The notes beneath the pieces are model-generated. The model was not told where the DNA came from and searched no databases. It worked only from the letters and a program-made list of their open reading frames with translations. From Clostridiales bacterium (GTDB lineage: Bacteria; Bacillota; Clostridia; Lachnospirales; Lachnospiraceae): 64,000 nucleotides of DNA. The stretch lies in assembly GCA_003343625.1 (NCBI GenBank), contig QAKV01000022.1, positions 31,665 through 95,664 of the forward strand. The letters are read 5' to 3'. The translations under genes were made by a program, and so were the position numbers. Shown in pieces: positions 10,094 to 18,087 of this stretch; positions within the stretch are counted from its first letter, which is position 1; each line of letters opens with the position of its first letter.

Positions 10094-10100
10094 TTTTATA

Positions 10101-10129
10101 TTGACAATTCGCCGTAACAGGGCTAAACT
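10101..10129 (+). promoter_or_regulatory. Predicted sigma-A promoter of htpG
   Basis: TTGACA at 10101-10106 and TAAACT at 10124-10129 are 17 bp apart, directly after the CIRCE operator and about 75 nt before the htpG start. Confidence 0.7.
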
Positions 10130-10203
10130 GTTCTTCAGAAGCGAAGAGCTGCAACACAGATCAGCCGGCGGGCTGAATGAAAAAAGAAAGGAACGTGATT
10201 TTC

Positions 10204-10968
10204 ATGGCTGAAAAGCATGGCAATTTATCGATTAATAGCGAAAATATTTTTCCCATTATCAAGAAATGGCTCTATTCCGACCACGATATCTTCTACAGGG
10301 AGCTGATTTCCAACGGCTGCGACGCCATCACGAAGCTGAAAAAGCTGGATATGATGGGCGAGTATACCCTGCCGGAAGACTATAAGCCCAGGATTTCCGT
10401 GATCGTGAATCCGGAGGAGAAGACTCTGAAATTCATCGATAACGGCATCGGCATGACTGCGGACGAGGTTGAGGAGTATATCAATCAGATCGCTTTTTCC
10501 GGCGCTACGGATTTCATCGCGAAATATAAGGATAAGGCCAACGACGACCAGATTATCGGCCACTTCGGCCTGGGATTTTATTCCGCTTTCATGGTGGCGG
10601 ATGAGGTTCATATCGATACCCTGTCCTGGCAGCCCGGCGCGAAACCGGTTCACTGGGAATGCGACGGCGGCACCGAATATCATATGGCAGAAGGCAGCTG
10701 GAACGAGATCGGCACCTGTATTACCCTGTTCCTGAACGAGGACTGCCTGCAGTTCTGCAACGAATACAAGGCGAAAGAAGTCATCGGCAAATATTGCTCC
10801 TTCATGCCTACTGAGATTTATGTCTCCCGGGAGAATACGCCGGAGACCCAGACCATTCTGGCGAGCGAGAAGCTGGACACCGACAGAGTGATCGAGGAGG
10901 TCAAGAAGGAAAAGGAGGACGATCCGGACCGGATCAAGATTGCGAAAAGGCCTGAACTGATGGCCTGA
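10204..10968 (+). pseudogene. htpG: Hsp90 chaperone HtpG, N-terminal fragment (reading frame broken)
   Basis: This fragment (254 residues from ATG 10204) carries the Hsp90 GHKL ATPase domain: the ATP-lid Asn/Asp motifs in FYRELISNGCDAITKL, the DNGIGMT loop, and IIGHFGLGFYSAFMV. An alternative upstream start at 10177 adds nine residues; the chosen one matches the usual MAxKxxxLSINSENIF beginning. The frame ends early at TGA 10966-10968, inside a 13-bp tandem duplication. Deleting one copy restores IAKRPELINDTHPLWMK and joins it to the downstream fragment. As written, only the ATPase domain would be made. A sequencing or assembly error cannot be excluded. Confidence 0.9.
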
Positions 10969-10974
10969 ACTGAT
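10949..10974 (+). repeat. 13-bp tandem duplication that frameshifts htpG
   Basis: GGCCTGAACTGAT occurs twice back to back (10949-10961 and 10962-10974). Thirteen is not a multiple of three, so the second copy shifts the frame and creates an in-frame TGA at 10966. Confidence 0.97.
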
Positions 10975-12319
10975 CAACGATACGCACCCCCTCTGGATGA
11001 AGAACCCCAGCGAGTGCACGAAGGAAGAGTACGTGGACTTTTACCGGAAGGTATTTCAGGATTATAAGGAGCCCCTGTTCTGGATCCACCTGAACATGGA
11101 TTACCCGTTCAACTTAAAGGGAATCCTCTATTTCCCCAAGATCAACATGGAGTATGAGTCCATCGAAGGCGTGATCAAGCTGTACAACAATCAGGTGTTC
11201 ATCGCCGACAATATCAAGGAAGTCATTCCGGAATTTCTGCTCCTGTTAAAGGGCGTTATCGATTGCCCTGATCTGCCCCTGAACGTGTCCAGAAGCGCCC
11301 TGCAGAACGATGGCTTCGTGAAGAAGATTTCCGACTACATCACCAAAAAGGTGGCGGATAAACTCTCCGGCATGTGCAAGACGCAGAAGGAAGAGTATGA
11401 GAAATATTGGGACGATATCGCGCCCTTCATCAAATTCGGCTGCTTAAAGGACGAGAAATTCTGCCAGAAGATGACGGATTACATCCTCTTTAAGAATCTG
11501 GACGGAAAGTATATGACTCTGCCCGAATGCCTGGAGGTCAACAAAGTGGATCCCGACGAGACCGGAGACGCGGCGGATGAAAAAGCGGTGGACGAAAACG
11601 GCGAAGCTGTGCAGGCCGAAGTTGTGGAAGAGAAGAAGGAAGAGGCCGATAAACCTGAAGAAAAGAAGGAAAAGACCATCTATTACGTCACAGACGAGCA
11701 GCAGCAGAGCCAGTACATCAATATGTTCAGGGCGGCGAAGATGGATGCGGTGATCCTGCCCGAACGCATCGACCAGCCTTTCATTTCACAGCTGGAGGCG
11801 AAGAACGAAGGGATCCATTTCGCCCGGATCGATGCGGATCTGACGGACGCATTCAGGGCAAAGACCGGTAAGAAAGCGCAGGAAGAGCTGAAGGCGCAGG
11901 CGGAGAAGATCGAAAAGCTGATGCGCAAGGCCCTGAAGAACGATAAGATCAAAGTCAGCGTGGAAAAGCTGAAGAACAAGAAGGTCTCCGCGGTGCTGAC
12001 CGTTTCGGAAGAATCCAGGCGGATGCAGGATATGATGAAGATGTACGGCGGCGGTATGGATATGAGTATGTTCGGCGGAGAAGGGGAGACTCTGGTGCTC
12101 AATGCCGGCCATCCGCTGGTAGCCTATATTACGGGACACGAGGAGGACGCCAATGCGAAGATGATCTGCGAGCAGTTGTATGATCTGGCCAAAATCCAGA
12201 ATGCGCCCCTGTCCCCCGATGCGATGACCAAATTCGTCGCCCGTTCCAACGAGATCATGATGCTGTTGATGAAGGAGGACTCGGGGAAGGCTGAAGCTGA
12301 ACCGGAGAAAGAGGAATAA
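10961..12319 (+). pseudogene. htpG: Hsp90 chaperone HtpG, middle and C-terminal fragment
   Basis: The remaining two thirds of htpG are open in the third frame relative to the first fragment, beginning within the duplication. The Hsp90 middle domain is recognisable (LFWIHLNMDYPFNLKGILYF, then IDCPDLPLNVSRSALQ) and so is the C-terminal dimerisation part (VLNAGHPLVAYITGHEED). A charged Glu/Lys stretch (about 11560-11680) interrupts the middle region. The first internal ATG is 10997, but no convincing ribosome site precedes it, so this part may not be translated. Apart from the duplication the gene looks intact, which suggests a recent event. Confidence 0.9.
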
Positions 12320-12345: not shown

Positions 12346-12388
12346 AACCCTCAAACTGATGTAAGATAGACTTACCGGTTTGGGGGTT
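12346..12388 (+). terminator. Hairpin between htpG and the RecQ-like gene
   Basis: AACCCTCAAAC at 12346-12356 pairs with GTTTGGGGGTT at 12378-12388 (one G-T pair), with an inner stem GTAAG/CTTAC. It may end the htpG transcript or act as leader for the helicase, whose ribosome site begins 8 nt later. Confidence 0.5.
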
Positions 12389-12409
12389 CCTTTGTGGAGG
12401 GGAAACGGT

Positions 12410-14632
12410 ATGGATGAATTGTTATATGACGTACAAAAACATTTTAAAAAGGTCAGACAGTTCCGTGAGTCGCAGGAAGAGATCATAACAGCGCTCTTAA
12501 GCGGCAGGTCTGTCCTGGCAAACATGCCCACCGGTTCCGGCAAATCTCTTTGCTATCAGTATCCCGCAATCAAATTGCCGGGGCTTACATTGGTGATAAC
12601 CCCTCTGATCGCCCTGATTCATGACCAGACGGCAAATTTCAACCTCAACTTTCCGGATGGGATGTTCAGAGCTGCTTTTCTTGTCGGCGATATGAGCCCG
12701 GCAGAATATAAAGAACAGATGCAGGCGATCCGGTCGGGCCGATGCAAACTCCTTTATGTTTCGCCGGAACGTCTGCTCTCCCCCAAATTTATCCGTTTCG
12801 CGAAGCAACTGGAGGTAAGTATGCTCGTTGTCGACGAAGCTCACTGCATTTCCATGTGGGGGTTTAACTTCCGCCCCGCTTATCTCAACATCCCGCAGTT
12901 TATGGATATCCTTCATATACATCCTTTGATCGCTGCTTTTACCGCCACGGCCACCGACTGCATAAAAAGAGATATAGAAACATTTCTCGGAATGAAAAAA
13001 GTCTGTCGTAAAGACAGCGGCTATATGAGGAAAAATCTGACACTTTCCGTCGTCCGCTGCACGGATGAGTCTGAAAAATATGCCCGGATCCTCGATTTCC
13101 TGGAAGAACATAAAAAGAAGAATGGAATTATTTACTGTTCCACGCGGGAAAAAGCGACTGAAGTCTATAACTGCCTGACGGGCAGATATTACAAAGCAGC
13201 GCTGTATCATGGCGGTATGGAAAAAGAGAAAAGGGAAAAAGCTTACCGAAGATTCATGAGAGGCTCCTGCAGGATCATGGTCTGTACCAATGCTTTCGGA
13301 ATGGGGATAGATAAGGGCAATATAAGCTTCATCCTCCATTTCGCAATGCCGCTCAATCTGGAAAGCTATTCCCAGGAGATCGGCCGTGCCGGACGCAATG
13401 GACGCGAAGCGGAATGCGTGCTGTATTATTGCGCGCAGGACAAAACGATCCTGGAAGGGGTTTTAAAACTTTCTGAAAGACCCGGGTGGTACGACGGACA
13501 AATGAGCAGGTATCTCGATGAGATGTCATATCAACGTCTGGATCAGATGGAGGAATATGGGAAAAACGGCGAAGGGCTGAGCAGCGCGATGCTCTGGCAG
13601 AAAATAGAAAGATATTTCCGCGAAACGCCGCTTCCCTGCTCCGAAGCAGAAGCGGACTGCATGCGGAATATCATCCTGAAAAAGACGAGAGAGATCCATT
13701 GCCTGTACACGAACGAGACGCGGGTCTGCGCATATATAAGGAACGGAAGCTTCAGGTGTGGCGAAACGATCCAAATCACAGTGTCCGGAAAAGGTCAGCC
13801 CGGGAAAACGCTCGCTGCGAGGATGAACAGACAGCTCACCTATTTTGATACGATGGTAGCGGATGCCGTTTATACCTTGCAGGCTTTTGGCAAAACGACA
13901 TTCTATCCCCGGAATATTCTCGCGCTGCTTTCCGGGGATCCTTCTGCTGCCATGAGGCCTGAAAAGGATAGCGGTCCGGGAAAAAACAAACGTGCGCTCA
14001 TCGTCGAAAGCCTTGAGAAGATGATGGCTACGGAGATAGAACTCGACCTGTCCGGATATCTTTCTTCCGGCAGCGTTCCGGAGCCGTTTATACATGGGAA
14101 TTTTCTCCCGCTGGAGCGACACGGGAAAAATGGATACACGATCAGGGAGATCCCTCCGCTATATCGATATGCCGAGCTTGAAGATCACCTTTTTACCATC
14201 CCCCAGGAAATGCTCTGCACATATAAGGACGGTAACCCTGAAATCAAAATGCCCAATTCTGCGGAAAACCTCAAACTACGGCACTTTCTGGCCAGAAGAG
14301 TGCTTATGATAAAGCGGTCGAGGTCTCCCCGCGGCCACAGCCCCATCAGCGCCAGCATAAAGCTGATCCGCAAAAGGAAAGGCGAGAGGGATATGCTGGG
14401 AATCCTCGGGATGGAAATCCGGCCGGACAATCCCCAGAAAAGAAGGGTCCTGAAAAATATCTGCAAAAAAGTCATAACCGTCCTGACCTGTTTTGAAAAA
14501 GAAGGGGTGATATATGGATTCCGCCCTGTCGGGACGGATGCTGAAATAGACGATGGCATTTTTTACAATATAAAAATCCTGTTATCCCCTTCCGATGAAG
14601 TTCGGGGGGAAGATGATCTGGATGAAAAATGA
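12410..14632 (+). CDS. RecQ-like superfamily 2 DNA helicase with atypical C-terminal region
   Basis: The 740-residue protein has a RecQ-type helicase core. Walker A is MPTGSGKS (39-46), Walker B is DEAH (142-145), and the RecQ aromatic loop reads CISMWGFNFRP. Motif VI is QEIGRAGRNGR. The normal RecQ zinc-binding, RQC and HRDC order is not evident after about residue 430. Instead, the last 130 residues (NSAENLKLRHFLARRVLMIK, RVLKNICKKVITVLTCFEKE, GVIYGF) resemble the winged-helix end of some plasmid or phage replication initiators; this is a pattern impression only. GGAGGGG precedes ATG 12410. Codons are more A/T-rich than neighbours, suggesting acquisition with the genes downstream. Confidence 0.85.
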   Translation: MDELLYDVQKHFKKVRQFRESQEEIITALLSGRSVLANMPTGSGKSLCYQYPAIKLPGLTLVITPLIALIHDQTANFNLNFPDGMFRAAFLVGDMSPAEYKEQMQAIRSGRCKLLYVSPERLLSPKFIRFAKQLEVSMLVVDEAHCISMWGFNFRPAYLNIPQFMDILHIHPLIAAFTATATDCIKRDIETFLGMKKVCRKDSGYMRKNLTLSVVRCTDESEKYARILDFLEEHKKKNGIIYCSTREKATEVYNCLTGRYYKAALYHGGMEKEKREKAYRRFMRGSCRIMVCTNAFGMGIDKGNISFILHFAMPLNLESYSQEIGRAGRNGREAECVLYYCAQDKTILEGVLKLSERPGWYDGQMSRYLDEMSYQRLDQMEEYGKNGEGLSSAMLWQKIERYFRETPLPCSEAEADCMRNIILKKTREIHCLYTNETRVCAYIRNGSFRCGETIQITVSGKGQPGKTLAARMNRQLTYFDTMVADAVYTLQAFGKTTFYPRNILALLSGDPSAAMRPEKDSGPGKNKRALIVESLEKMMATEIELDLSGYLSSGSVPEPFIHGNFLPLERHGKNGYTIREIPPLYRYAELEDHLFTIPQEMLCTYKDGNPEIKMPNSAENLKLRHFLARRVLMIKRSRSPRGHSPISASIKLIRKRKGERDMLGILGMEIRPDNPQKRRVLKNICKKVITVLTCFEKEGVIYGFRPVGTDAEIDDGIFYNIKILLSPSDEVRGEDDLDEK

Positions 14633-14633
14633 G

Positions 14634-14670
14634 CCTGACAAAAAAGTGATTTTTTGTCAGGACTTTTTTT
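14634..14670 (+). terminator. Strong intrinsic terminator of the RecQ-like gene
   Basis: A perfect 12-bp stem (14634-14645 with 14650-14661; arm CCTGACAAAAAA), a GTGA loop and a run of seven T directly follow the stop codon. Confidence 0.95.
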
Positions 14671-14992
14671 GTTATGCCCAGTATTTGCGCGCATATTCTG
14701 CTTTTTCTGCGGGCGGTAAAGTAAGAAGTAAAATAAAAAACAATAACAGAAACACCTATTTTGTTTTTGGTTTTACGTTTCGCTCTTTTTTTCATTTTTA
14801 GTTTATGATTTTATAATTCATATCTTTATTTCAATCCTTCACTTTTTTCTTAAAGTTTAACGTTTTTTGAATGCACCGCAAGGCGGTGCCGGGTACTTTT
14901 ATGAAAAGGTAATGAATAGTTAAGCTTAATTATCAGATTGATTTACGATTTAATGTTTTAATGTGAAAATGTGAAAGGAGAATGAATTCGAC
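14671..14992 (+). other. A/T-rich noncoding region with a small structured element
   Basis: No gene is seen in about 320 bases. Two short hairpins stand side by side: GCACCGC/GCGGTGC with an AAG loop (14873-14889) and CTTTT/AAAAG with an ATG loop (14896-14908). The region presumably holds the promoter of the five-gene operon. No DnaA-box cluster, tRNA or direct-repeat attachment site was recognised. Confidence 0.4.
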
Positions 14993-15412
14993 ATGATTCA
15001 AAATTCTAAACGATCTAAACGAAAGACTCAGCCGAAGAGAAAAGGAGCAGCCATATCGAAAATACCTCTTCAGGACAGGTTGAAACGGATTCATAGCGGA
15101 TACCCCTGTGATCCTGCCTATGCGATGCACGCCATATGTACGATGGCCAATACCCGGCTTCCTGAATTTTTTGGAGATCCTTCCCTTTTGGAACAATTTA
15201 CATGCGACTTATGGTTGTCGGATGCGGAAGCGAGAAATATGACTTTTAAAGAAGCCGCCTGGCGCATTTACCGGATCTGTATGGACAAAGACGAGTATAA
15301 GAAAAGGAAACACGAAGTAGAAAGCGCCATAGCGGATCTGGCAATTCCCCTGATCAGAAGCTGGGAAGAAAGGAGACACCTGTATGCAAAATCCCAAAAT
15401 TCCGCTGAATGA
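14993..15412 (+). CDS. Small protein with KIPLxxRLK motif, first gene of the ClpP/VirD4 operon
   Basis: The 139-residue protein has a very basic N-terminus (RSKRKTQPKRKG) and then KIPLQDRLKRIHSG (23-36), a motif repeated in the next gene's product. The remainder is predicted helical, with several aromatic and charged residues (EAAWRIYRICMDKDEYKKRK). No signal peptide or membrane segment is visible. GGAG is 12 nt before ATG 14993, a long spacing. It overlaps the next gene by 29 nt, so both are likely co-translated. I do not recognise a known family. The paired motif suggests a duplicated adaptor or docking segment. Confidence 0.7.
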   Translation: MIQNSKRSKRKTQPKRKGAAISKIPLQDRLKRIHSGYPCDPAYAMHAICTMANTRLPEFFGDPSLLEQFTCDLWLSDAEARNMTFKEAAWRIYRICMDKDEYKKRKHEVESAIADLAIPLIRSWEERRHLYAKSQNSAE

Positions 15413-15770
15413 GCGGCTGAAACTGGCAAAAAGCGGTTCCACCCCTTTTCTTTCGGCATATGAACTTACTGCCGCAGATATTTCCTCGGAAATACATAAA
15501 GTAACGGGGAACAGCCTTCTGACAGAACATTACAGAGATATCCAGAAATATACTTATGATAATGACACAAATATTCTGTACTTTCTGTCGCAGTTTTTAT
15601 ATACCCACACGGCTGCTGCAGTCTTCCTGGAAGAAAGCCTGAAACTGAAATATTATGGCCTGATAGAACCCTTTGCCATCTTATATGAGTATGAACTGGA
15701 ACAGCAAAGAGAAAAGTACGGCAGAAGAAAGGCGACAGCCACAGAAAACGGAAAGGAGAACGATCAATGA
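15384..15770 (+). CDS. Small protein with KIPLxxRLK motif, second gene of the ClpP/VirD4 operon
   Basis: The 128-residue protein begins almost at once with KIPLNERLKLAKSG (5-18), sharing nine of fourteen positions with the motif in the preceding protein. The rest is helical (LTAADISSEIHKVTGNSLL, YFLSQFLYTHTAAAVFLEESLKLKYY) with a charged tail. AGGAG lies just before ATG 15384, inside the end of the first gene. It overlaps the ClpP-like gene by ATGA. No enzymatic motif is visible. By position and shared motif it could be a partner or substrate adaptor for the peptidase or the ATPase that follow; this is inference. Confidence 0.72.
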   Translation: MQNPKIPLNERLKLAKSGSTPFLSAYELTAADISSEIHKVTGNSLLTEHYRDIQKYTYDNDTNILYFLSQFLYTHTAAAVFLEESLKLKYYGLIEPFAILYEYELEQQREKYGRRKATATENGKENDQ

Positions 15771-16369
15771 CTAATTCGCAAATGCCCGCCATCATAAAAG
15801 AAACCAGTTCCGGAACGGTATGTTACCGCATTCAGGACGCGATGTTCATGCGGAGGGAAATAACGCTGTCCGGGGAAATCACCCAGGAATCGGCCTCCGC
15901 TTGTATTATGCAGCTGCAATATCTGGCAGCACAGTCTGCCGATGAGGAGATAACGCTGTATATCAACAGTTCCGGCGGAGATGTCACTGCCGGGCTCGCC
16001 CTGTACGATGTCATGCAGGCCGTCAAATGCCCCATACATACCGTATGCATGGGTATGGCTGCGAGCATGGGAGCAATCCTTTTTACGGCCGGGGACATCA
16101 GGGATATCATGCCGCACGCTCGTATTATGATACACGACCCGCGCCTGAGCCAGGGCGTAACGGGGGATGCCATGCGCTTAAACGACATTTCCAAAGACCT
16201 TCTGGAAATGCGGCGTGTGCTCGGGCTCATTCTGGCCAGGCACACAAAAAAGAAGCTGCAGGAAATCTTCAAAGCCACACAGAAAGATACCTGGTTCAAT
16301 GCCCAGGAAGCTGTTAACTTCGGACTCGCAGACAAAATTATATACGAAATGAGAGGTGCATCCAGATGA
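15767..16369 (+). CDS. ClpP-family serine peptidase (orphan, within accessory operon)
   Basis: The 200-residue protein has the ClpP fold and a complete predicted catalytic triad: Ser100 in GMAASMGA, His123 in IMIHDP and Asp174 in QKDTWFNAQEA. The oxyanion-region motif INSSGGDVTAGLALYD is also intact. Housekeeping ClpP is normally encoded beside tig or clpX; here it sits between a small protein and a VirD4-like ATPase, each overlapping by ATGA. No Clp ATPase gene is in the window, so it may use a housekeeping ClpX/ClpC, the neighbouring ATPase, or act alone. It is probably a specialised paralogue and not the cell's main ClpP. Confidence 0.88.
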   Translation: MTNSQMPAIIKETSSGTVCYRIQDAMFMRREITLSGEITQESASACIMQLQYLAAQSADEEITLYINSSGGDVTAGLALYDVMQAVKCPIHTVCMGMAASMGAILFTAGDIRDIMPHARIMIHDPRLSQGVTGDAMRLNDISKDLLEMRRVLGLILARHTKKKLQEIFKATQKDTWFNAQEAVNFGLADKIIYEMRGASR

Positions 16370-17652
16370 ACGATAACTTCAGAAACGAAACATTCCGAAT
16401 TCTTGCCGAGAACCAAACCGTCTCAAACGACACGTGGAAAACGGGGTTAAACAATAACGATCTCATCATCGGCCCCAGCGGGGCGGGAAAAACCCGCGGA
16501 TATGTCCTTCCGAATATCATGCAGTGTAACGAAAGCATTATTGTCGCTGACAGCAAAAACACCCTTCGGGATAAAACGCAGAAACTGCTCCGGGAGAATG
16601 GCTACCATGTCATCAACATCAATATATCGGATCTTTCCGATGCTTCCTGCGATGGCTATAATCCGCTGGACTATATCCATTATGACAAAAAGAAAGGGCT
16701 GTACAATGAGCAGGATATCATGACCGTTTCGGCCTGTCTGGTTCCATGTCAGGACCTTCGCGAACCTTTTTGGGAATGTGCCGCGCGCATGTTCCTGGAT
16801 TGCCTGATCGCCTATGTGCTGGAATGCCTGCCGGAGCAGGAGCACCATTTGGGCAGTGTGGAAACGCTGTTCTTCGAAATGGGAAACAAATATTTCCACC
16901 GCATGTTTAACGAACTCGGGGAACTCAACCCGCAGAGCTTCGCTTACCGCCGGTATAAACTGGCGATGACGCTGGCGCCCGCCGACAGGACATTCTCCTC
17001 CGTTATGGGGATCCTGGCGGAAAAGCTGAGCACGCTCCTCACCGAGGACGTCAAGGCATTATTCCAGAAACCCAGAAAAATACGTTTCCAGGATCTCGGA
17101 AGAAGAAAATCCGCCGTTTTTATCGGCGTCAGCGATACGGATCGTTCCTGCGACAGGCTCGTGACCCTCTTTTTCGCTCAGGCCCTGCATGAACTTTGCA
17201 TGAGCGCTGACATGGACTACCCGTCCCACAGGCTTCCTGTCCCGGTACGCCTGATACTGGATGATTTCGCTGCAAACGGAAGTATTCCGGATCTGGATAA
17301 AATCATTTCCGTAATCCGGTCACGGGAAATTTCCGTCAGCATCATCCTGCAAAGCCTCTCACAGCTCGAGGCGCTTTACGGGGACGCGCGATGCAAAACA
17401 ATCCTCAACAACTGTGATACCTGTCTGTACCTCGGGGGACAGGATGTGGATACAGCGCGTTATATCAGCGTGAAGGCCGATAAATCAATCCACAGTATCC
17501 TCAATATGCCGTTAGACAACGCATGGCTGTTCCAAAGGGGGCATATGCCCAGGTCTGTCCGCAAATATGTTCCGGAAACAGAGACAATTGCGGCGGAAAA
17601 CACCAAACACAACAAAGAAAGGAAAAATGTGAAAAATGTACGATATCTATAA
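16366..17652 (+). CDS. VirD4/TraG-like P-loop ATPase without membrane domain
   Basis: The 428-residue protein resembles the ATPase domain of type IV coupling proteins (HerA/FtsK superfamily). Walker A is GPSGAGKT (36-43) and Walker B is LILDDF (about 296-301). The sensor-like region ILNNCDTCLYLGGQD and the ending MPLDNAWLFQRG are typical of TraG/VirD4. True coupling proteins are usually 550-700 residues with N-terminal membrane spans; none is present here, and no relaxase or mating-channel gene is nearby. It may therefore be a soluble hexameric motor with another job. It overlaps the ClpP-like gene by 4 nt and the last gene by 17 nt. Confidence 0.85.
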   Translation: MNDNFRNETFRILAENQTVSNDTWKTGLNNNDLIIGPSGAGKTRGYVLPNIMQCNESIIVADSKNTLRDKTQKLLRENGYHVININISDLSDASCDGYNPLDYIHYDKKKGLYNEQDIMTVSACLVPCQDLREPFWECAARMFLDCLIAYVLECLPEQEHHLGSVETLFFEMGNKYFHRMFNELGELNPQSFAYRRYKLAMTLAPADRTFSSVMGILAEKLSTLLTEDVKALFQKPRKIRFQDLGRRKSAVFIGVSDTDRSCDRLVTLFFAQALHELCMSADMDYPSHRLPVPVRLILDDFAANGSIPDLDKIISVIRSREISVSIILQSLSQLEALYGDARCKTILNNCDTCLYLGGQDVDTARYISVKADKSIHSILNMPLDNAWLFQRGHMPRSVRKYVPETETIAAENTKHNKERKNVKNVRYL

Positions 17653-18040
17653 TTCCTACCTCATGGCGCCCTGCTCTATCCCCATGGATAAAATGCTCGC
17701 CATTTATCGGAATATGATGGATGAACTCGATGATAAAGATGAAGAAGCATATGTATTCTACAGGGATATCCTGCAGGCTTCCCTGGACTACGCCAGGCTG
17801 CGCAGCCGCTGGAATCTGATGGGGCAAAAAGAACGGCTGGAATCAGATCCGGAACGAACCCGAAAACATAACCGCGTGATCCTCAGCATCAATATGCTCG
17901 CGAGGTATTTGGTCCAACGGGGGAAGAAGGCCGCCTGGCGGCAGGCCCTGGGCGATGAAAACAGAGATCCCTCTGTCAGAAAAGCGATCGGAGATTACGC
18001 CTGCTTTCTGGTATTTCTGCAGTGCCTGGACGCAAGATAA
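17636..18040 (+). CDS. Small helical protein, last gene of the ClpP/VirD4 operon (possibly DUF3232-like)
   Basis: The 134-residue protein is mostly helical and charged, with blocks RLRSRWNLMGQKERLESDPERTR (split by a turn), HNRVILSINMLARYL and AIGDYACFLVFLQCLDAR. The general pattern recalls the DUF3232 family of Clostridia, but I could not confirm this. ATG 17636 lies inside the end of the VirD4-like gene (17-nt overlap), following AAAGGAAAAATGTGAAAA. A bidirectional hairpin after it closes the operon. No signal peptide, membrane segment or catalytic motif is seen. Confidence 0.7.
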   Translation: MYDIYNSYLMAPCSIPMDKMLAIYRNMMDELDDKDEEAYVFYRDILQASLDYARLRSRWNLMGQKERLESDPERTRKHNRVILSINMLARYLVQRGKKAAWRQALGDENRDPSVRKAIGDYACFLVFLQCLDAR

Positions 18041-18060: not shown

Positions 18061-18087
18061 CTGCCAGCAGGTCTCGCCTGCTGGCAG
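18061..18087. terminator. Bidirectional hairpin terminator between the island and hppA
   Basis: CTGCCAGCAGG at 18061-18071 and CCTGCTGGCAG at 18077-18087 form a perfect 11-bp stem with a 5-nt loop. Minus-strand T4 follows for hppA, and a weaker A/T run follows on the plus strand. Confidence 0.85.

Follow-up and report, generated by a model that had tools for sequence, protein, structure and literature searches.

What would a ClpP peptidase and a VirD4-type ATPase do in one operon? The question is raised by a compact cluster of genes in 64,000 nucleotides of a Lachnospiraceae genome (Clostridiales bacterium, contig QAKV01000022.1, positions 31,665 to 95,664; this whole stretch is called the window below). 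Our preferred answer, which we place just short of an even chance, is that the cluster encodes a dedicated ATP-driven motor-peptidase machine acting at an origin or initiator complex. The pairing of motor and peptidase by itself is about an even call, and we leave a part in defence and a part in element maintenance about equal. In plain terms, some gut bacteria may have a new kind of machine for destroying proteins, encoded by a small wandering gene cluster that combines a DNA-pump-like motor with a protein-cutting chamber of its own and two helpers.

A gene set that recurs at unrelated sites

An earlier note on this DNA described a five-gene overlapping operon, and all five open reading frames (ORFs) are indeed found on the plus strand, with overlaps of 29, 4, 4 and 17 nt in order:

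14993-15412, plus strand: orf1, 139 aa, all-helical, putative adaptor
15384-15770, plus strand: orf2, 128 aa, paralogue of orf1, which it overlaps by 29 nt
15767-16369, plus strand: clpP, 200 aa, dedicated ClpP, triad intact, docking pocket rewired in part
16366-17652, plus strand: virD4s, 428 aa, soluble VirD4-type ATPase without a membrane domain
17636-18040, plus strand: orf5, 134 aa, accessory and optional

ORF3 was correctly read as a ClpP (PF00574, E 1.3e-54) and ORF4 as VirD4-like (PF02534, E 1.8e-46; PF12696, E 1e-23).

Relatives of the encoded VirD4 were sought in one genome per species. The resulting set of 82 stretches holds 80 genome loci (the best 80 of 184 relatives), one viral-contig locus and the window; the scan of viral contigs gave one VirD4s relative. 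The distance between ClpP and VirD4s is at most 300 bp in 68 of the 82 stretches and at most 1.5 kb in 73. Profile matches, counted at E 1e-3 unless another threshold is named, were obtained for ClpP in 75 stretches, orf1 in 70, orf2 in 57 (61 at E 1e-2) and orf5 in 14. The same set thus stands beside most relatives of the window VirD4, which rules out chance. Gene order varies between loci while the set stays together, and orf1 and orf2 are often one fused protein. The modules adjoin unrelated chromosomal genes, for example recG-, smpB- and pyrophosphatase-like genes (named mostly by reading the sequence). Most hosts named in the records belong to the Lachnospiraceae and Oscillospiraceae; Bifidobacterium, Slackia and Bacilli also occur. 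Recurrence at different chromosomal sites, which the earlier note had proposed as a check, was therefore found, so the set is not unique to the window strain. What recurs is a four-gene core rather than the five-gene unit first described, ORF5 being optional (14 of 82) and recQ-X, a neighbour that the note had left out, probably belonging to the system.

We also surveyed 397 genomes of a single family, scoring the first few candidates in each. VirD4s was present in 10 genomes, at 11 places, and ClpP adjoined it at all 11; the orf1/orf2 profiles matched at seven of these places, weakly at one and not at three (about 1.5 kb of flank covered). At least three of the 10 positive genomes overlap with those behind the 80 loci. 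Taken together, the recurrence and the survey counts describe a linked gene set that extends across phyla and is uncommon in the surveyed family. Matches were obtained in 1067 plasmid records, all below 60% identity, the best among the matches listed being 36%.

Some copies have company. Two short VirD4 copies share a contig on contig 38 of genome G323 (L138 and L141) and again in L066, at distances of about 16 kb and 8 kb, so modules can lie near each other. Seven loci (L032, L041, L046, L049, L053, L056 and L065) have the neighbour families C5, C8 and C12 in common, which were not seen in the listed stand-alone copies; some module copies may thus ride larger elements. A pyrophosphatase-like gene borders the module upstream in L038 (6278-8377) and downstream in the window, either a shared site or a coincidence.

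The module ClpP forms its own clade with an altered docking pocket

The window ClpP scores 160.7 bits against the TIGR00493 equivalog, below the cut-off of 308.6, and its Ser-His-Asp triad is complete. Module ClpPs were compared from 74 of the 75 loci, a 113-residue piece (L018) being excluded; Ser and His are kept in 74 of 74 and Asp in 69 of 74. The 18 genomes in which host ClpP was examined, like the 40 module genomes used below, were picked from kept loci, so that all carry the module. A host ClpP (at least 252 bits) was present in 18 of 18, alongside module ClpPs of 165-188 bits, with none of the latter in three Bifidobacteria. In a quick tree, one branch split the 74 module ClpPs from 25 others (24 host proteins and that of E. 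coli), with a Shimodaira-Hasegawa-like approximate likelihood ratio (SH-aLRT) support of 100.

Clp ATPases dock through IGF/LGF/MGF loops in hydrophobic pockets of ClpP, as described in PMC12383707 and PMC9753991. We chose the pocket positions ourselves, and singled out positions 28, 48, 82 and 112 (E. coli numbering) after the residue counts had been seen. These four are hydrophobic in 0, 15, 9 and 2 of 74 module ClpPs, against 24, 24, 23 and 24 of 24 host proteins; the most frequent module residues are E, R, A and E. Of the 74 module ClpPs, 71 have a charged residue at one of these positions, as against 0 of 24 host ClpPs, and the mean number of hydrophobic residues among nine pocket positions is 5.2 (5 in the window) versus 8.7. 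An active site that is kept beside a docking pocket that is altered should mean either another partner or a closed pocket. Since VirD4s nearly always adjoins the module ClpP, it is the obvious candidate. From these residue patterns, the module ClpP likely has a partner other than ClpX or ClpA, most simply the VirD4-like motor.

VirD4s is a separate class without a membrane domain

We take VirD4s to be a ring ATPase of the HerA/FtsK/VirD4 grouping. Rings of the VirD4 type transport DNA and, when they work in secretion, also proteins. The window protein carries Walker A at residues 36-43 and Walker B at D299-D300, and it passes the NCBIfam model of the CD1115 family (NF045973; 288 bits, cut-off 250). 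With profile A1, the 40 module genomes yielded 51 short VirD4s of at least 429 bits and 32 others of at most 274 bits, the latter in open frames of 584-715 residues. In the window protein Walker A starts at residue 36, and in 28 rows of A1 it is likewise close to the N-terminus, whereas it begins at residues 115-168, behind hydrophobic segments, in the 18 conjugative VirD4 sequences that were fetched of the 32. No strongly hydrophobic stretch precedes Walker A in the 79 aligned short VirD4s, whose starts were trimmed in the comparison; three of the 82 had been excluded because the NNND motif was absent or the protein shorter than 330 aa. The second acidic position of Walker B is Asp in 79 of 79 short and Glu in 18 of 18 conjugative proteins.

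Genomic context separates the two groups as well. A relaxase of PF03432, the one relaxase family searched, lies within 10 kb of 1 of 51 short VirD4s and of 12 of 32 conjugative VirD4s of the same genomes; within 40 kb the counts are 1 of 51 and 21 of 32, with contig ends limiting both and three rows below the curated cut-off excluded. The one short copy with a relaxase, 3.2 kb away, is L020. In a protein-database search, 2817 proteins matched at E 1e-20, conjugative VirD4s being expected among them; the best 120 are 56-100% identical and nearly all 395-450 residues long, a single length class that argues against decay. Thus the module stands outside conjugative elements, in line with the earlier note, which saw no relaxase or mating channel nearby, and VirD4s is a separate score class without a membrane domain.

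The helical partners

For Orf1, Orf2 and Orf5, searches of Pfam, NCBIfam, PADLOC and PHROGs gave nothing significant (best E 0.07). That orf1 and orf2 encode related proteins, as the earlier note had it, is weakly visible by BLAST and clear by profile comparison (probability 95, E 3e-8). An AlphaFold2 model of Orf1 is all-helical, with eight helices (predicted local distance difference test score, pLDDT, 86; predicted template modelling score 0.68), and found no match in the PDB. The helical partners are strongly diverged. A further protein of about 300 residues, orf6, is a C-terminal fusion to VirD4s in two loci (L036:9992-12289 and L061:710-2992) and a separate gene in L019, L054, L064, L071 and perhaps L016. 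Strongly diverged, paired and fused to each other, and with orf6 fused to the tail of VirD4s, these partners look like adaptors.

Other families occur near the module. C52 (340-502 aa) lies near VirD4s in L019, L054, L059, L064, L069, L071, L076 and L079, which include all three ClpP-less Bifidobacterium loci; three members tested had no Pfam match. A WYL-domain gene stands just upstream of ClpP-VirD4s in L062 (8204-9370) and a relative in L063 (8109-9233), both in Bacilli, with further relatives in L026 and L032. WYL regulators are often tied to defence systems.

A RecQ helicase with an initiator-like domain lies upstream

The region immediately upstream of orf1 contains:

12380-14632, plus strand: recQ-X, RecQ-type helicase with a C-terminal replication-initiator-like domain, its own transcription unit just upstream of the operon
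13703-14629, plus strand: X domain, modelled as a tandem winged helix of the RctB/RepE initiator fold
14634-14661, both strands: terminator separating recQ-X from the operon, a hairpin of 12 pairs followed by T tails
14662-14992, plus strand: A/T-rich operon leader with a promoter-like site inside

RecQ-X combines DEAD and Helicase_C domains with the X domain, its C-terminal 309 residues. The latter was searched against Pfam and PHROGs and matched neither; its structural model (pLDDT 85) matches first RctB and next RepE, two replication initiators. X occurs in 19 of the 82 stretches. In 15 it is joined to a DnaB-like ATPase or stands next to one; three copies (the window, L055 and L080) are RecQ fusions, and one stands by itself at a contig end. 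Among the 40 module genomes, 12 of 13 X places are no more than 4 kb from a short VirD4; the remaining one is in G023. RecQ matched in 83 of the 397 survey genomes, and only two of the matches span X, both in module genomes and 2.7 and 3.1 kb from VirD4s; eight other RecQs that were checked are without an X domain. A direct search for X in the 397 genomes gave four positives, the two RecQ-X fusions beside modules and genomes G244 and G262. As far as seen, then, the RecQ-X fusion goes with the module, and X with a DnaB-like ATPase also lives alone. RepL, a plasmid initiator family, lies within 4 kb in 7 of the 82 stretches and never together with X. It is through the initiator-like domain that recQ-X probably belongs to the system.

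The earlier note had placed the operon between terminators and given it more A/T-rich codons than its neighbours. The upstream hairpin has T tails on both strands, while the downstream one (11 pairs, 18061-18087) passed the terminator scan solely in the direction of the facing gene hppA, on the minus strand, and the six terminator-like sites of the scan are no excess over shuffled sequence (4.9, sd 2.4). GC content at third codon positions is clearly low in orf1 (0.45) and orf2 (0.43), compared with 0.57 in recQ-X; in clpP, virD4 and orf5 it is 0.62, only slightly under nine other window genes (0.635-0.749). The 360-bp gap 5' of orf1 has 31% GC. It contains the promoter-like site TTTTCA-17-TATAAT (14789-14817), a kind of site no more frequent than in shuffled sequence. 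Farther upstream, htpG (10100-12319, named by reading the sequence) is split over two frames, with the N-terminal part reaching about 10980 and the rest in an ORF at 10997-12319; it is a pseudogene or reflects a sequencing error.

A proposed machine and its rivals

In the machine that we propose, a soluble, probably hexameric VirD4-type motor that has lost the membrane anchor of conjugative coupling proteins would dock on a ClpP chamber of its own. With the membrane domain gone, the secretion-channel face of the motor would be free, and a ClpP ring could occupy that place, while the changed docking face of ClpP should exclude ClpX, ClpA and ClpC. Orf1 and Orf2, with Orf5 where present, would serve as helical adaptors, binding to the motor and selecting what it works on, and the machine would strip or degrade DNA-bound proteins. 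In the lineage of the window the target would probably be delivered by RecQ-X, so that an origin of replication or an initiator complex is the likely place of action. Since initiators and helicases turn up repeatedly with the module, the substrate may be a replication complex, belonging either to the element or to a competitor. A bolder version, which we consider rather unlikely, would make this the first compartmental protease driven by a motor of the VirD4/HerA group instead of an AAA+ Clp/Hsp100 ring, a membrane channel having been traded for a peptidase chamber that polices replication origins, with helicase-initiator fusions delivering foreign or competing replication complexes for destruction.

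Several observations weigh against the proposed machine. No ClpP is seen in 7 of the 82 stretches, and of these only L061 and L067 start at or near a contig end beside VirD4s; the other five are fully flanked (Bifidobacterium L059, L076 and L079; Lachnospiraceae L064 and L073), so the motor is able to exist without ClpP. Five pocket positions (62, 90, 92, 114 and 189) are still hydrophobic in 69-74 of 74 module ClpPs, position 60 separates module from host proteins poorly, and the E28-R48 pair may simply close the pocket. In L068, L070 and L077, ClpP lies 849-877 bp from VirD4s, carries Glu in place of the catalytic Asp and shows no charge in the pocket. The distances among ClpPs and among VirD4s, a point in favour of the pairing, do correlate (r 0.79, n 72; highest value in 999 permutations 0.18), but joint inheritance alone would produce this. 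Asp in place of Glu in Walker B means that ATP hydrolysis could be slower. As for the link to replication, G244 (L158) and G262 (L159-L160) have X next to a DnaB-like ATPase, perhaps as a free-standing replication unit, and their 20-31 kb of fetched sequence contained no module gene; 56 of the 82 stretches, many of them cut by contig ends, have neither X nor RepL within 4 kb; and no iteron-like array was found between recQ-X and orf1 (14600-15010) or in short pieces of L006 and L027. Nor were the surroundings enriched in the defence genes or integrases for which the earlier note had proposed to look. One hundred neighbour proteins gave single PADLOC matches only, with no defence enrichment, and the best PADLOC-DB match for the system itself was mad8 (16.2 bits, E 0.0014). 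A full-length recombinase is present in 9 of the 82 stretches, against 9.0 matches expected from genome-wide density, detection differing between the two counts.

The ties to initiators would also fit the maintenance module of a plasmid-like replicon, in which the motor-peptidase would remodel or degrade the replicon's initiator, either RepL or the RctB/RepE-like domain that is carried by RecQ or adjoins a DnaB-like helicase, and so set copy number. DnaB_C (7) and RepL (5) are the commonest Pfam families among the 100 neighbour proteins, X and RepL are never found together, as would hold for alternative initiators, and X with a DnaB-like ATPase is also found alone, as a replication unit would be. 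There is a parallel in iteron plasmids, whose Rep proteins are activated by host chaperones; the activation of plasmid Rep proteins by chaperones, with the monomer as the active form, is stated in PMC4980987. We nevertheless think this unlikely, given the 56 stretches without X or RepL nearby, the position of modules beside ordinary chromosomal genes, the low identity of all plasmid matches and the missing iteron array. Defence of the HerA-effector type, where the ring ATPase would sense foreign DNA or a replication complex and switch on ClpP as an effector without threading of protein, seems about as unlikely to us. It is in keeping with the stacking of the DUF4297 effector on a HerA hexamer (PMC11291478), the patchy occurrence within one family, the strong divergence of the helical partners and the WYL-domain gene of L062 with its relatives in L063, L026 and L032; against it stand the lack of defence-gene enrichment, a best PADLOC score of only about 16 bits and recombinases at background.

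That the operon merely joins two independent activities, VirD4s as a DNA pump and ClpP as an accessory peptidase working with host ATPases or with none, is improbable. VirD4 relatives are known to move DNA, five well-flanked stretches lack ClpP and five of the nine pocket positions stay hydrophobic, but the rest of the pocket for host ATPases is altered, with charge in 71 of 74, and the genes stay adjacent through rearrangements. Least credible by far is a remnant of an integrative conjugative or mobilizable element: VirD4s does exceed the CD1115 cut-off and L020 has its relaxase, yet the membrane domain is missing, the score gap is clear, relaxases are near 1 of 51 copies rather than 12 of 32, and the best 120 relatives are nearly all of one length class.

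If VirD4s does drive its ClpP, a secretion-type motor has turned protease motor. Two questions could then be tested: whether proteins are unfolded and threaded by coupling proteins, and what a partner ring has to provide for ClpP. A mobile gut-bacterial system possibly linking proteolysis to replication initiation would be added as well, and proteins now annotated as conjugal transfer proteins would have a better name.

Comparison with known systems

Both enzymes have known folds, but a machine made of them, should there be one, would be of a new kind. The earlier note had said that the operon fits no known system, and this agrees with our searches, in which no library model matched the system and no paper in the literature searched pairs VirD4 with ClpP. 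DUF4297-HerA complexes (PMC11291478) likewise combine a ring ATPase with an effector enzyme; unlike these, the module has a peptidase rather than a nuclease, a VirD4-type motor and no defence context found. The modelled X domain shares the tandem winged-helix fold of RepE of iteron plasmids and RctB of Vibrio chromosome 2. It differs from both in being fused to RecQ, or else attached or next to a DnaB-like ATPase, with no iterons in the one window leader examined. With the VirD4 coupling proteins of the CD1115 family (NF045973), VirD4s has in common the P-loop motor core and the TraM-recognition domain (PF02534, PF12696), and it departs from them in having no N-terminal membrane domain, DD in place of DE in Walker B, no relaxase linkage and a score class of its own. 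Finally, the module ClpP shares its fold family and catalytic triad with the ClpP of ClpXP, ClpAP and ClpCP. Unlike that protein, it forms a separate branch, carries charged, small or polar residues at four pocket positions, and coexists with the host ClpP.

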